Shown: one piece after another, positions 14,435 through 22,356 of the stretch | Layout: each line of letters opens with the position of its first letter | Position numbering within the stretch: position 1 is the stretch's first letter | NCBI GenBank assembly: GCA_029287455.1 | Contig: JARFRB010000117.1 | Span: 1 to 64,000, forward strand | Direction of reading: 5' to 3' | DNA length: 64,000 nt | Origin: Pelagibius litoralis | GTDB lineage: Bacteria; Pseudomonadota; Alphaproteobacteria; Kiloniellales; DSM-21159 | Program-made: the position numbers and the translations under genes | Notes under the pieces: generated by a model | The model's input: the letters and a program-made list of their open reading frames with translations, nothing else | The model's database searches: none | Told to the model about the DNA's origin: nothing

Positions 14435-15199
14435 CTAGGGCACGCGGCGGTCGATCCTCGTCCGTCGGCGAAGCGCGTCCAGGCTGGCTTCGTCCAGCCG
14501 GGGCGAAAGGACGACTTCCGCGCCGCCCCCCAGCCCGGCGTATGTCGCCGCCAGTGCCGCGGGGTCGCTCAAGGGCGCGCCGAGCAGCCAGCGCTCTCCC
14601 GGCAGCGCGGGCGGAATCTTCGCTGACAATCGGGAAAGCTCGGCCGCGTCCAAGGGGATTTCGGAGAATGCCTGGAAGATCTCGCCGCTTCCCCAAGCCG
14701 AATTGGACGCCGCGCCTTCGCGGGATTCGGATAACCGGAAGAAGCGGGGGTCGGGCGGCAGGTTGGCGAGCCCGCCGCCCCGCAAGAGGGGCAGCAGAAG
14801 GTTGCGCGGGAATGGCAAGAGATCGGCGAAGCGCCCGACCGCCACTTCAGCCTTCGGGCAGGCGGGCAAGGTCTTCAGAACCCGGTCCAAAAGGGCCGCC
14901 AGGTCCAATGTTACGATAAGCTCCGGACGGAAACGGGCAATCGCCGCCTCGGCCTCGGCGCGCGGATCCAGCAGCAGCACCTTGCCGCCGGCCGCCAGAC
15001 CGGCTGCCAGCGCCACCAAGGCCGCCGGGCAATTGGGGATGAACATCGCGACCCTGCGGGCGGGCTCTTCACGGGATTGCAGGCTGGCGGCGAGCTTGCC
15101 TGCCCGCGCGGCTAGCTCGCCGCTCTGGATCACCCGCCCAAGAAACCGCACCGCCCCTTGAGCCGAGCCCGCGAAGAGCGGGGGTGGGTCAAGGCTCAC
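14435..15199 (-). CDS. Shortened AMP-dependent ligase-like protein
   Basis: A 254 aa protein that resembles only the N-terminal part of acyl-CoA synthetases: RVAMFIPNCPAALVALAAGL and GGKVLLLDPRAE match the segment where these enzymes position their first Rossmann-like subdomain. The phosphate-binding Ser/Thr/Gly loop and the C-terminal adenylation domain are missing, so it is unlikely to be an active ligase. The frame is uninterrupted and GC-rich and starts with GTG overlapping the stop of the DUF938 gene (GTGA), so it appears translated. Could be a decayed gene or a reduced accessory protein. Confidence 0.6.
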   Translation of the reverse strand: MSLDPPPLFAGSAQGAVRFLGRVIQSGELAARAGKLAASLQSREEPARRVAMFIPNCPAALVALAAGLAAGGKVLLLDPRAEAEAAIARFRPELIVTLDLAALLDRVLKTLPACPKAEVAVGRFADLLPFPRNLLLPLLRGGGLANLPPDPRFFRLSESREGAASNSAWGSGEIFQAFSEIPLDAAELSRLSAKIPPALPGERWLLGAPLSDPAALAATYAGLGGGAEVVLSPRLDEASLDALRRRTRIDRRVP

Positions 15200-15813
15200 T
15201 GTCGAAACACCAGGGTCATGTTGTTAGCCGGCATATCGATGACCTTCATTTGCGCGAATCCCGCCGCGCGCGCGACGGCGCCGACGTCGTCCAGGTCGCG
15301 AAGCCCCAAGCGGGGGGCGCGGGCTTTGAGGTCGGCGTCGAAGGCAGCGTTTCCGGGGCTGGTGTGCTGGCCGTCGCGCTTGAAAGGGCCATAGATGAGC
15401 AAGGGGCCGCCGTGCTTCAGCACCTTTGCCGCGCCGCTGAAGAGGGCCTCGGTGGCGCTCCAGGGTGCCACGTGCAGCAGGTTCACTGCTAGCATGGCGT
15501 CGGCGGTCGCGATGGGCCAAGGCCAGGCCTCGACGTCGAGGTTCAGCGGGCTCCGCAGGTTTGACAGCCCCGCGTCGCTGGAATAAGCGGCGATACTGGC
15601 AAGCGCCTCGTCCCTAGGGTCGCTTGGCTGCCAGACCAAGTCGGGAAAGGCCGCGGCGAAGAAGACCGCGTGCTGCCCCGGACCGCTCGCGATCTCGAGC
15701 AGGTTTCCTCGCGCCGGAAGTTCCCGGGCCAAGACTTCCAGCAGGGGCCCACGATTTCGCTCGGCGGCGGGCGAATGCAGACGGGGATCGGGGCTGTCAT
15801 GCGGGTCCGGCAT
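15196..15813 (-). CDS. DUF938 family SAM-dependent methyltransferase-like protein
   Basis: A 205 aa protein of the DUF938 family, related to class I methyltransferases. Signature parts are the N-terminal SPAAERNRGPLLEVL, the SAM-binding LLEIASGPGQHAVFFA and the DAMLAVNLLHVAPW segment. Substrate unknown. Its stop overlaps the start of the ligase-like gene, so the two are translated together. Confidence 0.85.
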   Translation of the reverse strand: MPDPHDSPDPRLHSPAAERNRGPLLEVLARELPARGNLLEIASGPGQHAVFFAAAFPDLVWQPSDPRDEALASIAAYSSDAGLSNLRSPLNLDVEAWPWPIATADAMLAVNLLHVAPWSATEALFSGAAKVLKHGGPLLIYGPFKRDGQHTSPGNAAFDADLKARAPRLGLRDLDDVGAVARAAGFAQMKVIDMPANNMTLVFRQ

Positions 15814-15938
15814 CGTGCGTTTCCTCTACCTCGCGGGCCAAGGCCGCGCCGGGAGTCCCGGTGGGCATGCCTGCGGCGGATAAATCCCTAAAACGACAAG
15901 GGTTGCCTGCCATGAAAGGGGCGTGATAGGCAATCGCC

Positions 15939-16397
15939 ATGCTGAAGCGCTTGAAGGATTTCTTGTCCTCCCAACCCGGAGATGAATCGGGTGCGGACCA
16001 CGACGAGTTACAGCTCGCCCTGGCCGCCCTCCTGGTCTATGCAGCCCACTTGGACGAGGAGCTCGACGGGGACGAGCGGGAAATCATTCTGGGCCTTCTG
16101 GAAGAGCATTTCGAGCTCGACCGGGCGGGGGCGCTGGATCTCTTCGAAAAGGCGTGGGCGAAAGCGGCTGAAACCACCCAGCTCTTTGGCATGACGCGGG
16201 TGATCTGCGATCACTACGACGCGGACCAGCGTTTGGAGATGCTGGAGATGTTGTGGCAAGTCGTGTACAGCGATGGCCGCTTGCACGATCACGAGGCAAG
16301 CTTGATGCGCCGCGTGGCGGGCTTGCTGCATGTATCGGACCGGGACAGCGGGGTTGCCCGTAAGCGCGCGCTGGACCGATTGGGGATGAACCACTAG
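15939..16397 (+). CDS. TerB-like (DUF533/TerB fold) protein
   Basis: A 152 aa all-helical acidic protein of the TerB family, which was named for tellurite resistance but is widely found as a stand-alone protein of unknown role. Recognisable parts are LALAALLVYAAHLDEELDGD and the LEMLEMLWQVVYSDGRLHDHE repeat-like segment containing conserved acidic residues that in TerB bind metal. It lies 54 bp before fdxA in the same direction. Confidence 0.82.
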   Translation: MLKRLKDFLSSQPGDESGADHDELQLALAALLVYAAHLDEELDGDEREIILGLLEEHFELDRAGALDLFEKAWAKAAETTQLFGMTRVICDHYDADQRLEMLEMLWQVVYSDGRLHDHEASLMRRVAGLLHVSDRDSGVARKRALDRLGMNH

Positions 16398-16451
16398 CCG
16401 AGCGGAACGCGCCGGAATTTGCCGGCATCCGAAACGAGGACGACGAAACCG

Positions 16452-16790
16452 ATGACCTATGTGGTGACCGAAGCCTGCATCAAGTGCAAATACATGGACT
16501 GCGTGGAAGTCTGTCCGGTCGATTGCTTCTATGAAGGCGAGAACATGCTGGTCATTCATCCTGACGAATGCATCGACTGCGGTGTCTGCGAGCCGGAATG
16601 CCCGCCCGAAGCCATCATACCGGACAGCGACGCCGCCGCGGACGATTGGCTAGAGCTGAATAAGGAATACAGCGAAGCCTGGCCAAATATTAACCGCAAG
16701 GGCGAGTCTCCTGCCGACGCGGACGTGCATCGCGGCGAGGCGGACAAGTACAAGAAATACTTTAGCGATAAGCCAGGCGCCGGAAGCTGA
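16452..16790 (+). CDS. fdxA: Ferredoxin FdxA, 7Fe-8S type
   Basis: A 112 aa ferredoxin carrying one 3Fe-4S and one 4Fe-4S cluster. The N-terminal motif [18 protein letters not shown] lacks the fourth Cys of a standard set, as in 7Fe ferredoxins, and [12 protein letters not shown] gives the second cluster. The long C-terminal tail ending near [15 protein letters not shown] is family typical. The start is MTYVVTEAC at 16452; the upstream open frame to 16419 lacks homology. An electron donor to unknown partners. Confidence 0.95.
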
Positions 16791-17176
16791 AACCTGATCG
16801 GCCCCTCCGGTTTGCGCTAGCGGTTCCCTAGGGAGCGCCGGCGATCAATATCACGTGACCGTGGCCTTGGTCGGCGGCGCGGCGGGCTCCGGAATCCGCG
16901 GAGATCCTTGGGGCCAGGTTGTTTTCCGGCGCTTTTGAAACTATAGTATTACAATTGCTGAACTCTTAGTTATTTGAAGGGGCGCGGCAAAGCGGAGGCT
17001 TTTGCCGCCCGTCGTTTTCCGAAGAGATCGGAAAGATCCGCGGCGCGGCAGGGGGCGATTTTAGGTGCTGGCCGGCCTCGACGCTTGAGGCCGTCTTCGT
17101 CCTCTCCGCGAATATTTTGCACCGGGTCCCGTTTCCTGGGCCCAAACGGGATGAATAAGTGGAGACTGGCCAAAAC
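16791..17176. other. 386 bp non-coding region, carD leader
   Basis: No gene seen. The stretch 16935-16985 is notably AT-rich (runs such as TATAGTATTAC and TTAGTTATTTG) against a GC-rich background and probably holds the carD promoter, although no convincing -35/-10 pair was found. A CACGTG lies near 16852. Confidence 0.5.
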
Positions 17177-17674
17177 ATGGCAAAGAAGTTGGAGTTTGAA
17201 ATCGGCGATTATGTGGTCTACCCGACCCACGGCGTCGGGCGCGTGATGGGTATCGAACAGCAGACGATTTCGGAAATGGACGTCGAACTTATCGTCATTA
17301 AGTTCGAGAAGGACCGTATGACGCTCCGGGTCCCCGTCGCGAAGGCCCAAAATTCCGGCTTGCGGCGCCTTTCCTCGCGCAAGCTTATGGACACCGCCCT
17401 GACGACCTTGCGCGGCCGCAGCCGCGTGAAGCGCACCATGTGGAGCCGCCGCGCGCAAGAGTACGAGGCGAAGATCAATTCCGGTGATCCTGTCTCGATC
17501 GCCGAAGTGGTGCGCGACCTGCATCGCGGCGAAGACCAGCCGGACCAATCCTATAGCGAACGGCAGATGTACCAAGCGGCGCTCGATCGCTTGGCCCGCG
17601 AGCTCGCCGCATTGGAAAAGATCGACGAGGTCGCGGCCGCGGCCAAACTCGAAAAGCTTCTGAGCGCCGCCTAG
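17177..17674 (+). CDS. CarD family transcriptional regulator
   Basis: A 165 aa RNA polymerase-binding regulator. The N-terminal RID/Tudor-like domain (about 5-60: FEIGDYVVYPTHGVGRV) contacts the RNAP beta subunit in the family, and the helical C-terminal domain (about 70-160: RRLSSRKLMDTAL, WSRRAQEYEAKINSGD) binds DNA at the upstream edge of the open complex. In alphaproteobacteria CarD activates promoters, including rRNA promoters, that lack a conserved T at -7. MAKKLEF at 17177 is the usual start. Confidence 0.93.
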   Translation: MAKKLEFEIGDYVVYPTHGVGRVMGIEQQTISEMDVELIVIKFEKDRMTLRVPVAKAQNSGLRRLSSRKLMDTALTTLRGRSRVKRTMWSRRAQEYEAKINSGDPVSIAEVVRDLHRGEDQPDQSYSERQMYQAALDRLARELAALEKIDEVAAAAKLEKLLSAA

Positions 17675-17806
17675 CGCCGCCCGGCACCGCTTGCGCAAGG
17701 CGCGGTGGCCGACCGGTTTCTTGGCCCAACAAGGCGTCGAAGGCGGCGGCGGCCAGGCGTGTCGTCATGTGTTATAGGAGTTTAAGGCGGGGTAGAGGCG
17801 GCGGCC

Positions 17807-18610
17807 GTGGACCGGAATCAACAGAAATTCGGACATTTGCAGGCTGCCCAGCGGATTTGGGCGATTGCGTCGGTTCACGGCGATGCTCTACGCCTCGGCA
17901 AGCTTCATGACCGGATCTGGGGGCGCCTGGCCGCAGGCGATCAAGTGGTCTACCTGGGCAATCTACTCGGGCGCGGGCCGGCGGTGTCCGAAACCCTGGA
18001 CCACGCGATCGCCTTTCGCCGCGCCGTCATGTCCGTGGCCCCGGCTGAGCAGGACCAGGTGATCTTCCTGCGCGGCGCCCAAGAAGAAATGTGGCAGAAG
18101 CTTTTACAACTGCAATTCGCGACCGACCCGCGCGGTGTGCTCACTTGGATGTTCGATCAAGGCGTGGGGGCGACGCTGGAAGCCTATGGCGGGTCCCAGG
18201 ACGATGCTTTCGCCGCTGCCAAGAAAGGGGCCATAGGGCTGACGCGCTGGACGCAGGCCTTGCGCGCCGTCATGTCGGGCCGGCCTGGCCACATGGCCTT
18301 GATGAGCGCGCTGAAGCGCGCGTGCACCACCGACAATGGCCCGCTGCTCTTCGTGAACAGCGGGCTCGACCCCTCGCGGCCCCTCGACAGCCAACGGGAT
18401 TCCTTCTGGTGGGCAAGCTCCGGGTTCGCGCGGATCGCCGAACCCTACGGAAACTACAAGCGAATCCTGCGCGGCTTCGACCCGGCCCATCCGGGCCTCG
18501 CCGAGACGCGCTACACGGTCACTCTCGACGGCGGCTGCGGCTTTGGCGGGCCTTTGCTGGCCGCCTGTCTTTCGCCCGATGGCGAGATCCTGCACCGGAT
18601 CGAGGTTTAG
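17807..18610 (+). CDS. PPP-family (PrpA-like) metallophosphoesterase homologue lacking metal ligands, probable pseudophosphatase
   Basis: A 267 aa protein that keeps the order and spacing of bacterial serine/threonine PPP phosphatase motifs but not their catalytic residues. GDxHG is ASVHG (21-25), GDxxDRG is GNLLGRG (51-57), GNHE is GAQE (90-93), VHAG is VNSG (183-186) and the late GHT site is RGFD near 222-225. The conserved surroundings remain, for example DPSRPLDSQRDSFWW and a C-terminal LDGGCGFGGPL corresponding to the DTGAxxGG end. Thus the fold is expected but metal-dependent catalysis is not. It lies between carD and rpoH in the same direction, starting with GTG. Function unknown; a binding or regulatory role is inference. 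Confidence 0.85.
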   Translation: MDRNQQKFGHLQAAQRIWAIASVHGDALRLGKLHDRIWGRLAAGDQVVYLGNLLGRGPAVSETLDHAIAFRRAVMSVAPAEQDQVIFLRGAQEEMWQKLLQLQFATDPRGVLTWMFDQGVGATLEAYGGSQDDAFAAAKKGAIGLTRWTQALRAVMSGRPGHMALMSALKRACTTDNGPLLFVNSGLDPSRPLDSQRDSFWWASSGFARIAEPYGNYKRILRGFDPAHPGLAETRYTVTLDGGCGFGGPLLAACLSPDGEILHRIEV

Positions 18611-18768
18611 CGCGCACCCTGCCCGCCCGCGACCGCCGCTCGTCCGGCCGGCGCACCCATCCGCTCAAGACCAATGGGTTTCCCACGAAATTCGTGGCAC
18701 GAAACTGATCCACTCGCGGCCCGCCTTCGTAAACCTGTTAACGCATACAAGAATACGGGAAGCAGAGC

Positions 18769-19653
18769 ATGGCTTACTTAGAAACCGCGGAGGCGCAGCG
18801 CGCGAACGCGGCTTTTATCCGGAAGTCGATGAGCGAACCTTTACTGTCGCGCGAACGGGAATTCGAGTTGGCGCGCCTGTGGCGAGAGGAAAATGACGAG
18901 CGGGCACTCCACGAACTGATACGCAGCTACACCCGCCTGGTGATCGCGGTTGCGTCGAGGTTCCGGAATTATGGCTTGCCCTTGGGCGATCTTGTTCAAG
19001 AAGGGTCGGTAGGGTTGATGCAAGCGGCGGCTCGTTTCGAGCCAAGCCGGGAAGTTCGCTTCTCGACCTACGCCACATGGTGGATTCGTTCGGCCATCCA
19101 AGACTTCATTTTGCGCAACTGGTCGATCGTGCGCACGGGCACGACGGCCGCGCAGAAATCGCTGTTCTTCAATCTACGCCGGTTGCGCGCGCGGATTGAG
19201 GAGAACAGCGGGCGCGTCTTGGATCACGATGGCCGCGAGCGCATCGCGCGGGAGCTCACGGTGAGCATCGGTGACGTTGAGTCCATGGAGTCCCGGCTCT
19301 CGGCGAGCGACCAATCGCTCAACATGGCCGTCGGTGAAAGCGGTGAGGACGAGTGGCAGAACTTCCTGGCCGACGAACGGCCGGGGCCGGAAGAGAACGT
19401 CATGGTTTTGCACGACGGCCAACTTCGCGCGCGCTGGCTTGACGATGCGCTGGGCGCTTTGGACCGCCGCGAGCGGATCATAATCGAGGCGAGGCGCTTG
19501 ACCGACGATGGCGCGACCCTTGAGGACCTGGGCAAGGAACTCGGCGTCAGTAAGGAACGGGTGCGTCAGTTGGAGCATCGGGCGCTCGGTAAGCTGCGCC
19601 GTGAAATCCTTAGCCACAATGCCGCGCCGGACGAGTTGTTGATCGAAGGCTAG
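18769..19653 (+). CDS. rpoH: Heat-shock sigma factor RpoH (sigma-32)
   Basis: A 294 aa sigma factor with region 2 (ELIRSYTRLVIAVASRFRN, then LVQEGSVGLMQAAARFEP and FSTYATWWIRSAIQDFILR), the RpoH box-like QKSLFFNLRRLRA that is specific to sigma-32, and region 4 (LEDLGKELGVSKERVRQLEHRAL). It directs transcription of chaperone and protease genes. A GGGAAG precedes the ATG. Alphaproteobacteria often have two rpoH paralogues; which one this is cannot be told. It converges with the cyclase gene, 13 bp apart. Confidence 0.96.
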   Translation: MAYLETAEAQRANAAFIRKSMSEPLLSREREFELARLWREENDERALHELIRSYTRLVIAVASRFRNYGLPLGDLVQEGSVGLMQAAARFEPSREVRFSTYATWWIRSAIQDFILRNWSIVRTGTTAAQKSLFFNLRRLRARIEENSGRVLDHDGRERIARELTVSIGDVESMESRLSASDQSLNMAVGESGEDEWQNFLADERPGPEENVMVLHDGQLRARWLDDALGALDRRERIIIEARRLTDDGATLEDLGKELGVSKERVRQLEHRALGKLRREILSHNAAPDELLIEG

Positions 19654-19666
19654 GTTTGGGCCGCCG

Positions 19667-21553
19667 TTACCTCGCGGCCTGGTCTTCGCCTGGCTCGTAT
19701 TCCAACAGCTGCAGTATGTCGAGCTGCCCGGCGCGGCCCCTGATCGTGTGTTGGCCAAGATCGCTCAACTGGAACTCGGACCCCAGTTGCGCGGCCGTGG
19801 ACCCGCTGATCAGGATCTTGCAGTCTTGGCGTTCCTCCCCCAGTTCGTGGCCGAGAGATTCCAGCCTTTGGGCAACGTTCACGGCGTCCCCGACGAGGGT
19901 GTAGTTGATGCGGCCCGGCGCGCCAATGTTCCCGACCAGCACGCTGCCGCTCTGAATGCCGATGCGTAGCCGCACCCTCGGCCGGCCGGCGCGGCCCCGT
20001 TGCTTGTTCTCGAGATACACCGCCTGAGCGATCGCGACGGCGGCGCGGCAGGCGCGCTCGGCCTGGTCTGGCTGGTCGTCGGGTGCCCCCCAGAACGCCA
20101 TAACGGAATCGCCGATGTATTTGTCGACCGTGCCCCCCTCCGCTTCGATGCAGCCCGCCAAGAGGCCGAAATGCCGGTTGAGGAAGTCGGCGACCTGGGT
20201 GGCGTCCAGCTTTTCGCAGACCGTGGTAAAGCCAACGATATCGGTGAAGAGGACCGTCACCGGCCGCTCTTCGGAGCGTGTGGCCGCCTCCCCGCTTAGC
20301 ATAAGCCGCATAACGAGGCTGCGGGGCACGTAGGTTTCGAAAAGGCGCAAGCCGCCCAGCATGGCGTTATAGGCATTGGCCGCTTGGTCCAGTTCCTTGA
20401 ACGGGCTGCCGGGGAGCAAAGGTGCCGCGGCCAGATCCAATCGCCCGATCGCACGTGCCGCCCGGGCGATCCGCTGTACCGGCCGCGAAACCGCCCGGCC
20501 GAAGACAATGGCGAGCCCCATGGCCGCGATCAAAATACCAAGCGAGACGAAAGCTGCGTCGATCAATCTGCGGAAGGGGACGCGCGCGTCGCTAGCTGGC
20601 AGATGGACTCCGACGATCCAGGGGGTCTGCGTGGGACCCTGGAATTCTCGGTAGACGAAGATTCTCTCTCCCTGGGAGGTTTCAACTTCCCGCCCATCCA
20701 GATCGCTTCCGGCGAGGAGCCAATTCATCTCATAGCCGTCCGGCAGCCAGATGTCGGCAAGAACGGCGTCCTGAACCTCTCCGAGCTTCGGCAGAGGCTT
20801 GGATTCCGAAACGCCGCGCACGCCGCCGGCAAGCGACGGATGCGCCAACACACTGTCGCGCCCATGGAGAACAAAGATTCCGACTTCCGGATCATCGGAT
20901 AGTTCGGAGACGAACTCCGAGAGAGCTGAGATCGACACCACGGCGACAACGACCCCCAGAGTCTCGCCGTCTCCGCGCAAGGGCGCCTGCACGACCACGT
21001 GCGGCTGGCGAAGCGCTTTGACCCAGGTCACGAGGTAGCGCGACGAGGATTCGGGCAGGCGCCCCGCACCCAAGGCCGCTGCGCTTTCGGGCTGTTCCTG
21101 CCATCCGCCGCCAAGCACTTCCAGCCGATCCGAATAGTTGGCGATGGCTAAGGTGCGTCCGCTGCCGAGGAGTAAAGCGGCACCGCGGATCTGTGGCGCC
21201 CCGGCGAAAACTCCACGCAGGAAGTCCTCCGTTGCCGTTTCGTCCTCCAGGTTCAGTGAACCTCTGGCAACTTGGGCCGCGGTGAAATCGACGATATTTT
21301 CCGCCGGCTTCAGATGGCGGCGGATACGCCATTCCAAGTCCTCGAGCGACTGCTCGGTGCGCGCGAGCACCAGCTCCTTGGTGTTGTCGGTCGCGAGCTT
21401 CAAGGTGACCCAGCTGACGGACCCCAAGGCAATCAGCATCAGACCGCCGAAGCCAAGCAGCAAGGCTGCGGCTAGCGAAAGACGCCGGCGCCGAGGGCGT
21501 TGACTCGCCCCCGCAGGTTCCAGGTCGGCGTCTTCGTGTGTCGGGCGCTTCAC
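19667..21553 (-). CDS. Membrane class III adenylate/guanylate cyclase with extracytoplasmic sensor and HAMP-like linker
   Basis: A 628 aa receptor-type cyclase. A transmembrane helix at about 26-48, a dCACHE-like periplasmic sensor at about 50-330, a second helix at about 335-357, a HAMP-like linker (GRAVSRPVQRIARAARAIG) and a catalytic domain at about 430-610 are visible. Metal-binding Asp residues are in VLFTDIVGFTT and in GGTVDKYIGDSVMAFWG; NYTLVGDAVNVAQRLE is the usual transition-state region. It starts with GTG overlapping the stop of the nuclease-like gene, so they are co-translated. Substrate ATP or GTP is not decided. Confidence 0.92.
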   Translation of the reverse strand: MKRPTHEDADLEPAGASQRPRRRRLSLAAALLLGFGGLMLIALGSVSWVTLKLATDNTKELVLARTEQSLEDLEWRIRRHLKPAENIVDFTAAQVARGSLNLEDETATEDFLRGVFAGAPQIRGAALLLGSGRTLAIANYSDRLEVLGGGWQEQPESAAALGAGRLPESSSRYLVTWVKALRQPHVVVQAPLRGDGETLGVVVAVVSISALSEFVSELSDDPEVGIFVLHGRDSVLAHPSLAGGVRGVSESKPLPKLGEVQDAVLADIWLPDGYEMNWLLAGSDLDGREVETSQGERIFVYREFQGPTQTPWIVGVHLPASDARVPFRRLIDAAFVSLGILIAAMGLAIVFGRAVSRPVQRIARAARAIGRLDLAAAPLLPGSPFKELDQAANAYNAMLGGLRLFETYVPRSLVMRLMLSGEAATRSEERPVTVLFTDIVGFTTVCEKLDATQVADFLNRHFGLLAGCIEAEGGTVDKYIGDSVMAFWGAPDDQPDQAERACRAAVAIAQAVYLENKQRGRAGRPRVRLRIGIQSGSVLVGNIGAPGRINYTLVGDAVNVAQRLESLGHELGEERQDCKILISGSTAAQLGSEFQLSDLGQHTIRGRAGQLDILQLLEYEPGEDQAAR

Positions 21554-22356
21554 TCAATCACCTCGATTTGTTCCGGATGGGTGATCTCGATCATCGGGCC
21601 GTTGACTTCGGTCAGCCAGCCGCGCACCCGTACGCGCAAGCCCTCATAGTCGCTGATCTCGATACCTTCGCGCTCGAACAGGCGGCGGACCCCGGGCTCC
21701 AGCGAGGCGGCGAAGTCGCTGCGCCGATCCGGCCCGAAGTTGAGATAGCCGCGGCCGCGCACCACCGCGGTGGCGAGAACCTGGCCCTCGACGATCTGAA
21801 AGCTGCGAAGGCGGCCTCCCGTCTGGTCGGTCGTTAGGACACGGTAGAACGGCAGCGCCCAGATACCGCGCCCCTTGGCGCGCGCAACCTTCTCCGCCGC
21901 CAGCAAGCGGCTGACGCCCGACCGGGTCTCCGCGGTGCTGACCACCCGCGCCAATCCCGCCGCCAGCAGGGCCGCTTGGATCCATCCGCCCTCGTCGTCG
22001 AAGACTTGGGCGTGCAGGCGGCCGTAGCGGTTCCTGGGCGGGCCGGTGAACACCAGGCTCAAACGGCGCCCCAGGGCGAACTCGCCAAGCGCGGCCCGCC
22101 CCGCATCCTCGAGCGGCCAAGACTTCGTCTCGTCGAAACCGAGCGGCGCCTTGGGTGCCTGTATCGCGGCGAGGCGCAGCAACCGCCCGTCGCTAAGCTC
22201 CAGGGTATCTCCGTCGATTGCGGCCACGGCCTCCACCGTAGCGTCGGCCTGGAAGCCGAATGGCAAGGCCGGCGAGGCCTCTGCGGCCAGCGGCCGCCAT
22301 ATCACGGCGGTCATCAGGACGAACACGGAAATCCGCAAGGGGTGCAAACGCGCCAT
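21550..22356 (-). CDS. Exported staphylococcal nuclease-like (SNase) domain protein
   Basis: A 268 aa protein with a signal peptide (HPLRISVFVLMTAVI, ending near AAEASP) and a thermonuclease-like fold: VAAIDGDTLELSDGRLLRLAAIQAPK and the later NRYGRLHAQVF correspond to the substrate loop and barrel of SNase. The second catalytic Arg/Glu set is only partly recognisable, so nuclease activity is uncertain. The C-terminal 80 residues have a distinct OB-like domain (VRVRGWLTEVNGPMIEITHPE). Precedes and overlaps the cyclase gene by 4 nt. Confidence 0.8.
   Translation of the reverse strand: MARLHPLRISVFVLMTAVIWRPLAAEASPALPFGFQADATVEAVAAIDGDTLELSDGRLLRLAAIQAPKAPLGFDETKSWPLEDAGRAALGEFALGRRLSLVFTGPPRNRYGRLHAQVFDDEGGWIQAALLAAGLARVVSTAETRSGVSRLLAAEKVARAKGRGIWALPFYRVLTTDQTGGRLRSFQIVEGQVLATAVVRGRGYLNFGPDRRSDFAASLEPGVRRLFEREGIEISDYEGLRVRVRGWLTEVNGPMIEITHPEQIEVIE

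Follow-up and report, generated by a model that had tools for sequence, protein, structure and literature searches.

The window, a stretch of 64,000 nucleotides from Pelagibius litoralis (contig JARFRB010000117.1), carries a pseudophosphatase gene between carD and an rpoH-type sigma factor gene. The following genes of this region were annotated:

16452-16790, + strand: fdxA ferredoxin gene, a conserved member of the gene block (neighbourhood comparison)
17177-17674, + strand: carD, the upstream neighbour (Pfam CarD_TRCF_RID and CarD_C)
17807-18610, + strand: gene of a PPP-fold pseudophosphatase of 267 aa (intact open reading frame, orthologues, predicted fold)
18769-19653, + strand: rpoH-type sigma factor gene, the downstream neighbour (NCBIfam PRK07500 above the cut-off, TIGR02392 below it)

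The open reading frame of the pseudophosphatase starts with GTG and contains no internal stop codon. This GTG at position 17807 is the earliest ATG, GTG or TTG codon past the upstream stop, and a GAGG sequence is located 8 nt 5′ of it. No element was found in an Rfam scan of positions 15000-22000, and the promoter and terminator scan gave results no better than the chance level.

The window genome has two further RpoH-like genes (G000:C108:18617-19417 and G000:C133:868-1674), each sharing about 44-45% identity with the rpoH-type gene at 18769-19653. Convergent to the latter, an adenylate/guanylate cyclase gene with a HAMP domain is located at 19667-21553 on the − strand.

Fold and degenerate motifs of the protein

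A Pfam search with the window protein gave no match, and 20 of its orthologues gave stray weak matches at most. The sole match in the PHROGs search of the window protein was NinI-like (0.0078). Homology to PPP phosphatases was evident from an alignment of residues 10-258 with a canonical protein (G000:C1:32602-33288; 33% identity, E 7e-15) and from NCBIfam PRK00166 matches among the orthologues, down to 6e-6. The AlphaFold2 model, built with 60 family members, reached a pLDDT of 92.3 and a pTM of 0.91. In comparisons with the PDB using Foldseek and VIA-align, active PPP enzymes matched it over nearly the full length with Z scores of 16-21, namely Rhizobiales-like phosphatase 2 (21.2), the PnkP phosphatase domain (21.1), 2qjc (20.4), lambda phosphatase (19.1) and ApaH (17.9). 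According to the predicted model, the PPP/calcineurin-like alpha-beta sandwich is kept.

Five degenerate motifs were located in the protein by orthologue alignment and by comparison with the canonical paralogue:

17867-17881, + strand: ASVHG in place of GDxHG, residues 21-25
17957-17977, + strand: GNLLGRG in place of GDxxDRG, residues 51-57
18074-18121, + strand: GAQE in place of GNHE, residues 90-93, with the family-specific GxQEEMWxKLLQLQFA, residues 90-105
18353-18364, + strand: VNSG in place of VHAG, residues 183-186
18470-18481, + strand: RGFD in place of HGHT, residues 222-225

In the alignment with the canonical PPP protein of the same genome (P0002/L098), which has a Pfam Metallophos match (E 1.5e-16), these are paired as ASVHG/GDIHG, GNLLGRG/GDYIDRG, GAQE/GNHE, VNSG/AHAG and RGFD/HGHT. 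The replacement of all five motifs had been recognized in the preliminary description and is reproduced here, as is the retention of non-catalytic segments (Q196, D241, G243 and G248). The description of the last motif can be refined, since R222 occupies the position of the first His and a Phe or Tyr that of the metal-binding His.

Replacement of the active site across the family

The same kinds of substitution were found in 160 distinct orthologues, a recurrence well outside what chance would give. All 160 retain between zero and three of the six metal ligands, compared with six of six in each of 33 canonical homologues. The Asp of GDxHG is replaced by Ala or Ser in 155 of the orthologues, the first Asp of GDxxDRG by Asn (N52) in 152 (95%) and the second by Gly (G55) in all 160. 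The His of GNHE is retained in none of them and is a Gln (Q92) in 151. For HGHT, the first His is changed to Arg (R222) in 155 orthologues (97%) and the metal-binding His to Phe or Tyr in 138. H24 is retained in 88% of the orthologues and the His of HAG in 41%; judged by this frequency, the protein may still bind one metal weakly.

Outside the motifs, the phosphate-clamp Arg, which binds phosphate in PPP enzymes, is present in 32 of the 33 canonical proteins. Another residue is found at this position in at least 155 of the 160 pseudophosphatases, most often S, G, A or N (140 sequences). The Arg of GDxxDRG is retained in 69 of 160. These alignments show that the family has lost the phosphate-clamp Arg as well as the di-metal site and the catalytic Asp/His pair. 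Since the phosphate-holding residues of active PPP proteins are missing, the earlier suggestion of a phospho-signal reader is disfavoured for the ancestral pocket.

Other positions have acquired new residues that are nearly fixed, namely R71, R89, Q92, E94, M95, W96, K98, A105, W148, T149, R153, W201 and R222. The columns of the ancestral pocket, assessed from the sequence alignment rather than from model coordinates, show stronger conservation than randomly drawn columns (entropy 1.17 versus 1.77; 2.3% of random sets are equally low). Such conservation, together with pocket substitutions that are fixed and not drifting, would also be expected of a rebuilt enzyme, in which H24, N52, R89, Q92, E93 and R222 serve a different reaction that may need one metal ion or none. 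This explanation is considered improbable, as H24 (88%) is the one ligand of six that is widely kept, the phosphate-clamp Arg is lost and the alignment reveals no new set of metal ligands.

The median dN/dS of the pseudophosphatase was 0.08 over 43 close pairs (CarD 0.02, FdxA 0.04, RpoH 0.13), values which were determined by the Nei-Gojobori method from non-independent pairs, some with large dS. Purifying selection is thus combined with a loss of catalytic residues that is fixed across the orthologues, the combination by which a pseudophosphatase is recognized. The idea of selection for the fold without catalysis appears well founded, given the predicted fold and the loss of the site in 160 of 160 orthologues under this constraint.

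A single decayed gene heading for loss could explain the missing motifs, and nothing further was found in its favour. It was rejected because the losses occur family-wide at the same positions, all listed orthologues have open frames and dN/dS is about 0.08; its probability is practically nil. Orthologues with intact motifs at the same locus, which had been named as the case that would point to such decay, were searched for and found in none of the 160. As read from the alignments, the site has undergone replacement under constraint and not decay, and the proteins very probably constitute a conserved non-catalytic PPP family.

Distribution and gene neighbourhood

In a whole-genome search, 37 of 39 close genomes had an orthologue with an open frame, at 44-64% identity. 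Across the class, orthologues were found in 98 of 289 sampled genomes at a threshold of E below 1e-25, i.e., in about a third of the sampled Alphaproteobacteria. A scan of named genomes for the pattern QEEMWxKL yielded 440 relatives. The best 80 of them were used; Tistlia, Fodinicurvata, Denitrobaculum, Kiloniella, Pelagibius, Skermanella and Nitrospirillum are among these. The scores in 398 genomes of the phylum were bimodal, with 13 orthologues of at least 293 bits, all belonging to the class, followed by a gap and a remainder of at most 75 bits, whose top fetched matches are canonical PPP proteins. No orthologue outside the class was found in these 398 genomes, and the best non-class match (G446, 72 bits) groups with the canonical proteins.

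In a maximum likelihood tree of 97 proteins (root arbitrary, bootstrap not fully settled), the pseudophosphatases and the canonical forms are split by one branch with a support of 100/100, and 100% of the bootstrap trees contain a single change between the two. The family is ancient, vertically kept and either sister to or derived from the canonical bacterial PPP phosphatases.

Three loci in metagenome-assembled genomes (L148 and L150, labelled Asaia bogorensis; L146, labelled Chromatiaceae) carry an fdxA-carD-pseudophosphatase block that shares 54-80% identity with the window block, so that these labels look doubtful. A Telmatospirillum metagenome-assembled genome (JARLJB01; L187 and L189) contains two different pseudophosphatase copies, each with carD, which is due to either a duplication or a mixed bin.

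Some pseudophosphatases are known to modulate active relatives, and the protein could act similarly on a canonical PPP paralogue, as a heterodimer or competitor. Both forms occur in 59 genomes, the pseudophosphatase only in 39, the canonical form only in 55 and neither in 136 (Fisher p 3e-7, a value that ignores phylogeny and genome size). The co-occurrence favours such a modulator, but 39 of the 98 genomes with the pseudophosphatase have no canonical homologue at E<=1e-15, and in the window genome the pseudophosphatase and canonical genes are on separate contigs. An obligatory partner of a canonical PPP protein was rejected on the basis of these 39 genomes, and a modulator in general has a low probability.

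With respect to the neighbourhood, carD was found upstream on the same strand in all 80 named loci (the best 80 of 440 relatives), with fdxA in 74 of them. The distance between carD and the pseudophosphatase gene has a median of about 130-145 bp (132 bp in the 80 named loci). In the class, carD is located within 3 kb upstream on the same strand, by coordinates, in at least 78 of the 98 genomes and near the gene in six further ones; in 10 of the 98 it lies elsewhere or on another contig, with carD at a contig end in one of them (G194). One of the six, locus L074 (G287:C45, 2027-3411), has carD and the pseudophosphatase gene tail to tail on opposite strands, unlike nearly all other loci. In about nine genomes the gene is away from carD and has no consistent new partner; five relocated copies share no neighbour (L239 still adjoins rpoH). 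Two pseudophosphatases of family f122 (L237, L241), also away from carD, have a C-terminal extension of about 60-70 aa.

Among the 73 named loci that could be tested, rpoH follows downstream in 30; the other 43 lack it despite sufficient flank. A gene for a HAMP cyclase was found downstream in 19 of the 80 named loci (the best 80 of 440), always on the opposite strand. Many carD-bearing Alphaproteobacteria lack the pseudophosphatase gene cleanly, some with rpoH directly adjoining carD; it is thus dispensable in them. In three such loci (L227, L231, L234), FdxA-CarD is kept and CarD-RpoH directly adjoin. As 256 of the 289 class genomes have CarD, co-occurrence with CarD is uninformative.

The proposed connection to carD therefore holds as synteny in most loci, with the exception of some relocated copies without carD nearby. 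The connection to rpoH is weaker, being seen in fewer than half of the testable loci, and genomes without the gene can also have carD and rpoH side by side.

Function and comparison with known systems

A pseudophosphatase of this kind is likely to act by binding, a mode suggested by the known behaviour of pseudoenzymes (PMC10211241) and by the precedent of VPS29 (PMC3101248). The rebuilt face of the former active site and the QEEMWxKLLQLQFA stretch would then accommodate a protein or ligand. The most constant neighbour is carD, which would make CarD or CarD-bound RNA polymerase the likeliest partner, for which the pseudophosphatase could serve as a scaffold or modulator, possibly in transcription that depends on CarD. 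On grounds of synteny, CarD or RNA polymerase can be named as binding partner tentatively, and RpoH is a weaker candidate than either.

A function unrelated to CarD, with the fdxA-carD block inherited as a unit, would account for the relocated copies that several lineages carry without carD, for the persistence of FdxA-CarD adjacency without the gene and for a gap to carD that is longer than usual in tightly coupled operons. Because synteny extends over the entire fdxA-carD block, the adjacency may reflect inheritance and not function. This explanation is nevertheless rather unlikely, since orthologues with as little as 26-40% identity still adjoin carD on the same strand, and carD is a more frequent neighbour than rpoH or the TerB gene.

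Overall, the favoured explanation, held with some confidence, is that the protein is conserved, acts by binding and not by catalysis, and has a function tied to the carD locus. Its extension to a dedicated RNA polymerase/CarD accessory factor, which arose from a dead PPP phosphatase and is present in a large part of the Alphaproteobacteria and missing from many, is doubtful.

Literature searches turned up nothing specific on phosphatases linked to CarD or on PPP pseudophosphatases in bacteria, and no phosphatase is mentioned in the Caulobacter CdnL paper. The reviews found treat mainly eukaryotic pseudophosphatases of other folds. The family may simply have been overlooked, given that many Alphaproteobacteria lack it. 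As a bacterial family of PPP-fold pseudoenzymes that has fixed substitutions, lacks a Pfam model and is linked to carD, it would illustrate clearly how a phosphatase can become a binding protein, and it is a candidate lineage-specific factor in alphaproteobacterial transcription.

Compared with the canonical bacterial PPP proteins (lambda phosphatase, PrpA/PrpB, ApaH and the PnkP phosphatase domain; PF00149), the fold, motif order and spacing are the same; Q196, W202, D241, G243 and G248 are common to both, and the identity to canonical homologues is about 25-36%. The pseudophosphatase differs in lacking the metal ligands, the catalytic Asp/His and the clamp Arg, in its own stretch at residues 93-105 and in having no Pfam match.

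Eukaryotic replicative DNA polymerases contain inactive calcineurin-like B-subunits with a structural role. They are similar in that a dead phosphoesterase fold serves a nucleic-acid polymerase structurally, but they are eukaryotic, belong to a DNA and not an RNA polymerase and have an extra OB domain.

In the pseudophosphatases PHLPP2 and STYX (PMC12002173, PMC10211241), a phosphatase fold was likewise kept after the loss of catalysis, but these eukaryotic folds are unrelated. The retromer subunit VPS29, an inactive scaffold of the metallophosphoesterase fold (PMC3101248), could serve as a model of how the protein works, since it uses the phosphoesterase fold as a rigid binding platform without activity. 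It differs in being eukaryotic, in belonging to another branch of the superfamily and in binding metal weakly, and the homology to it is limited to the fold superfamily.
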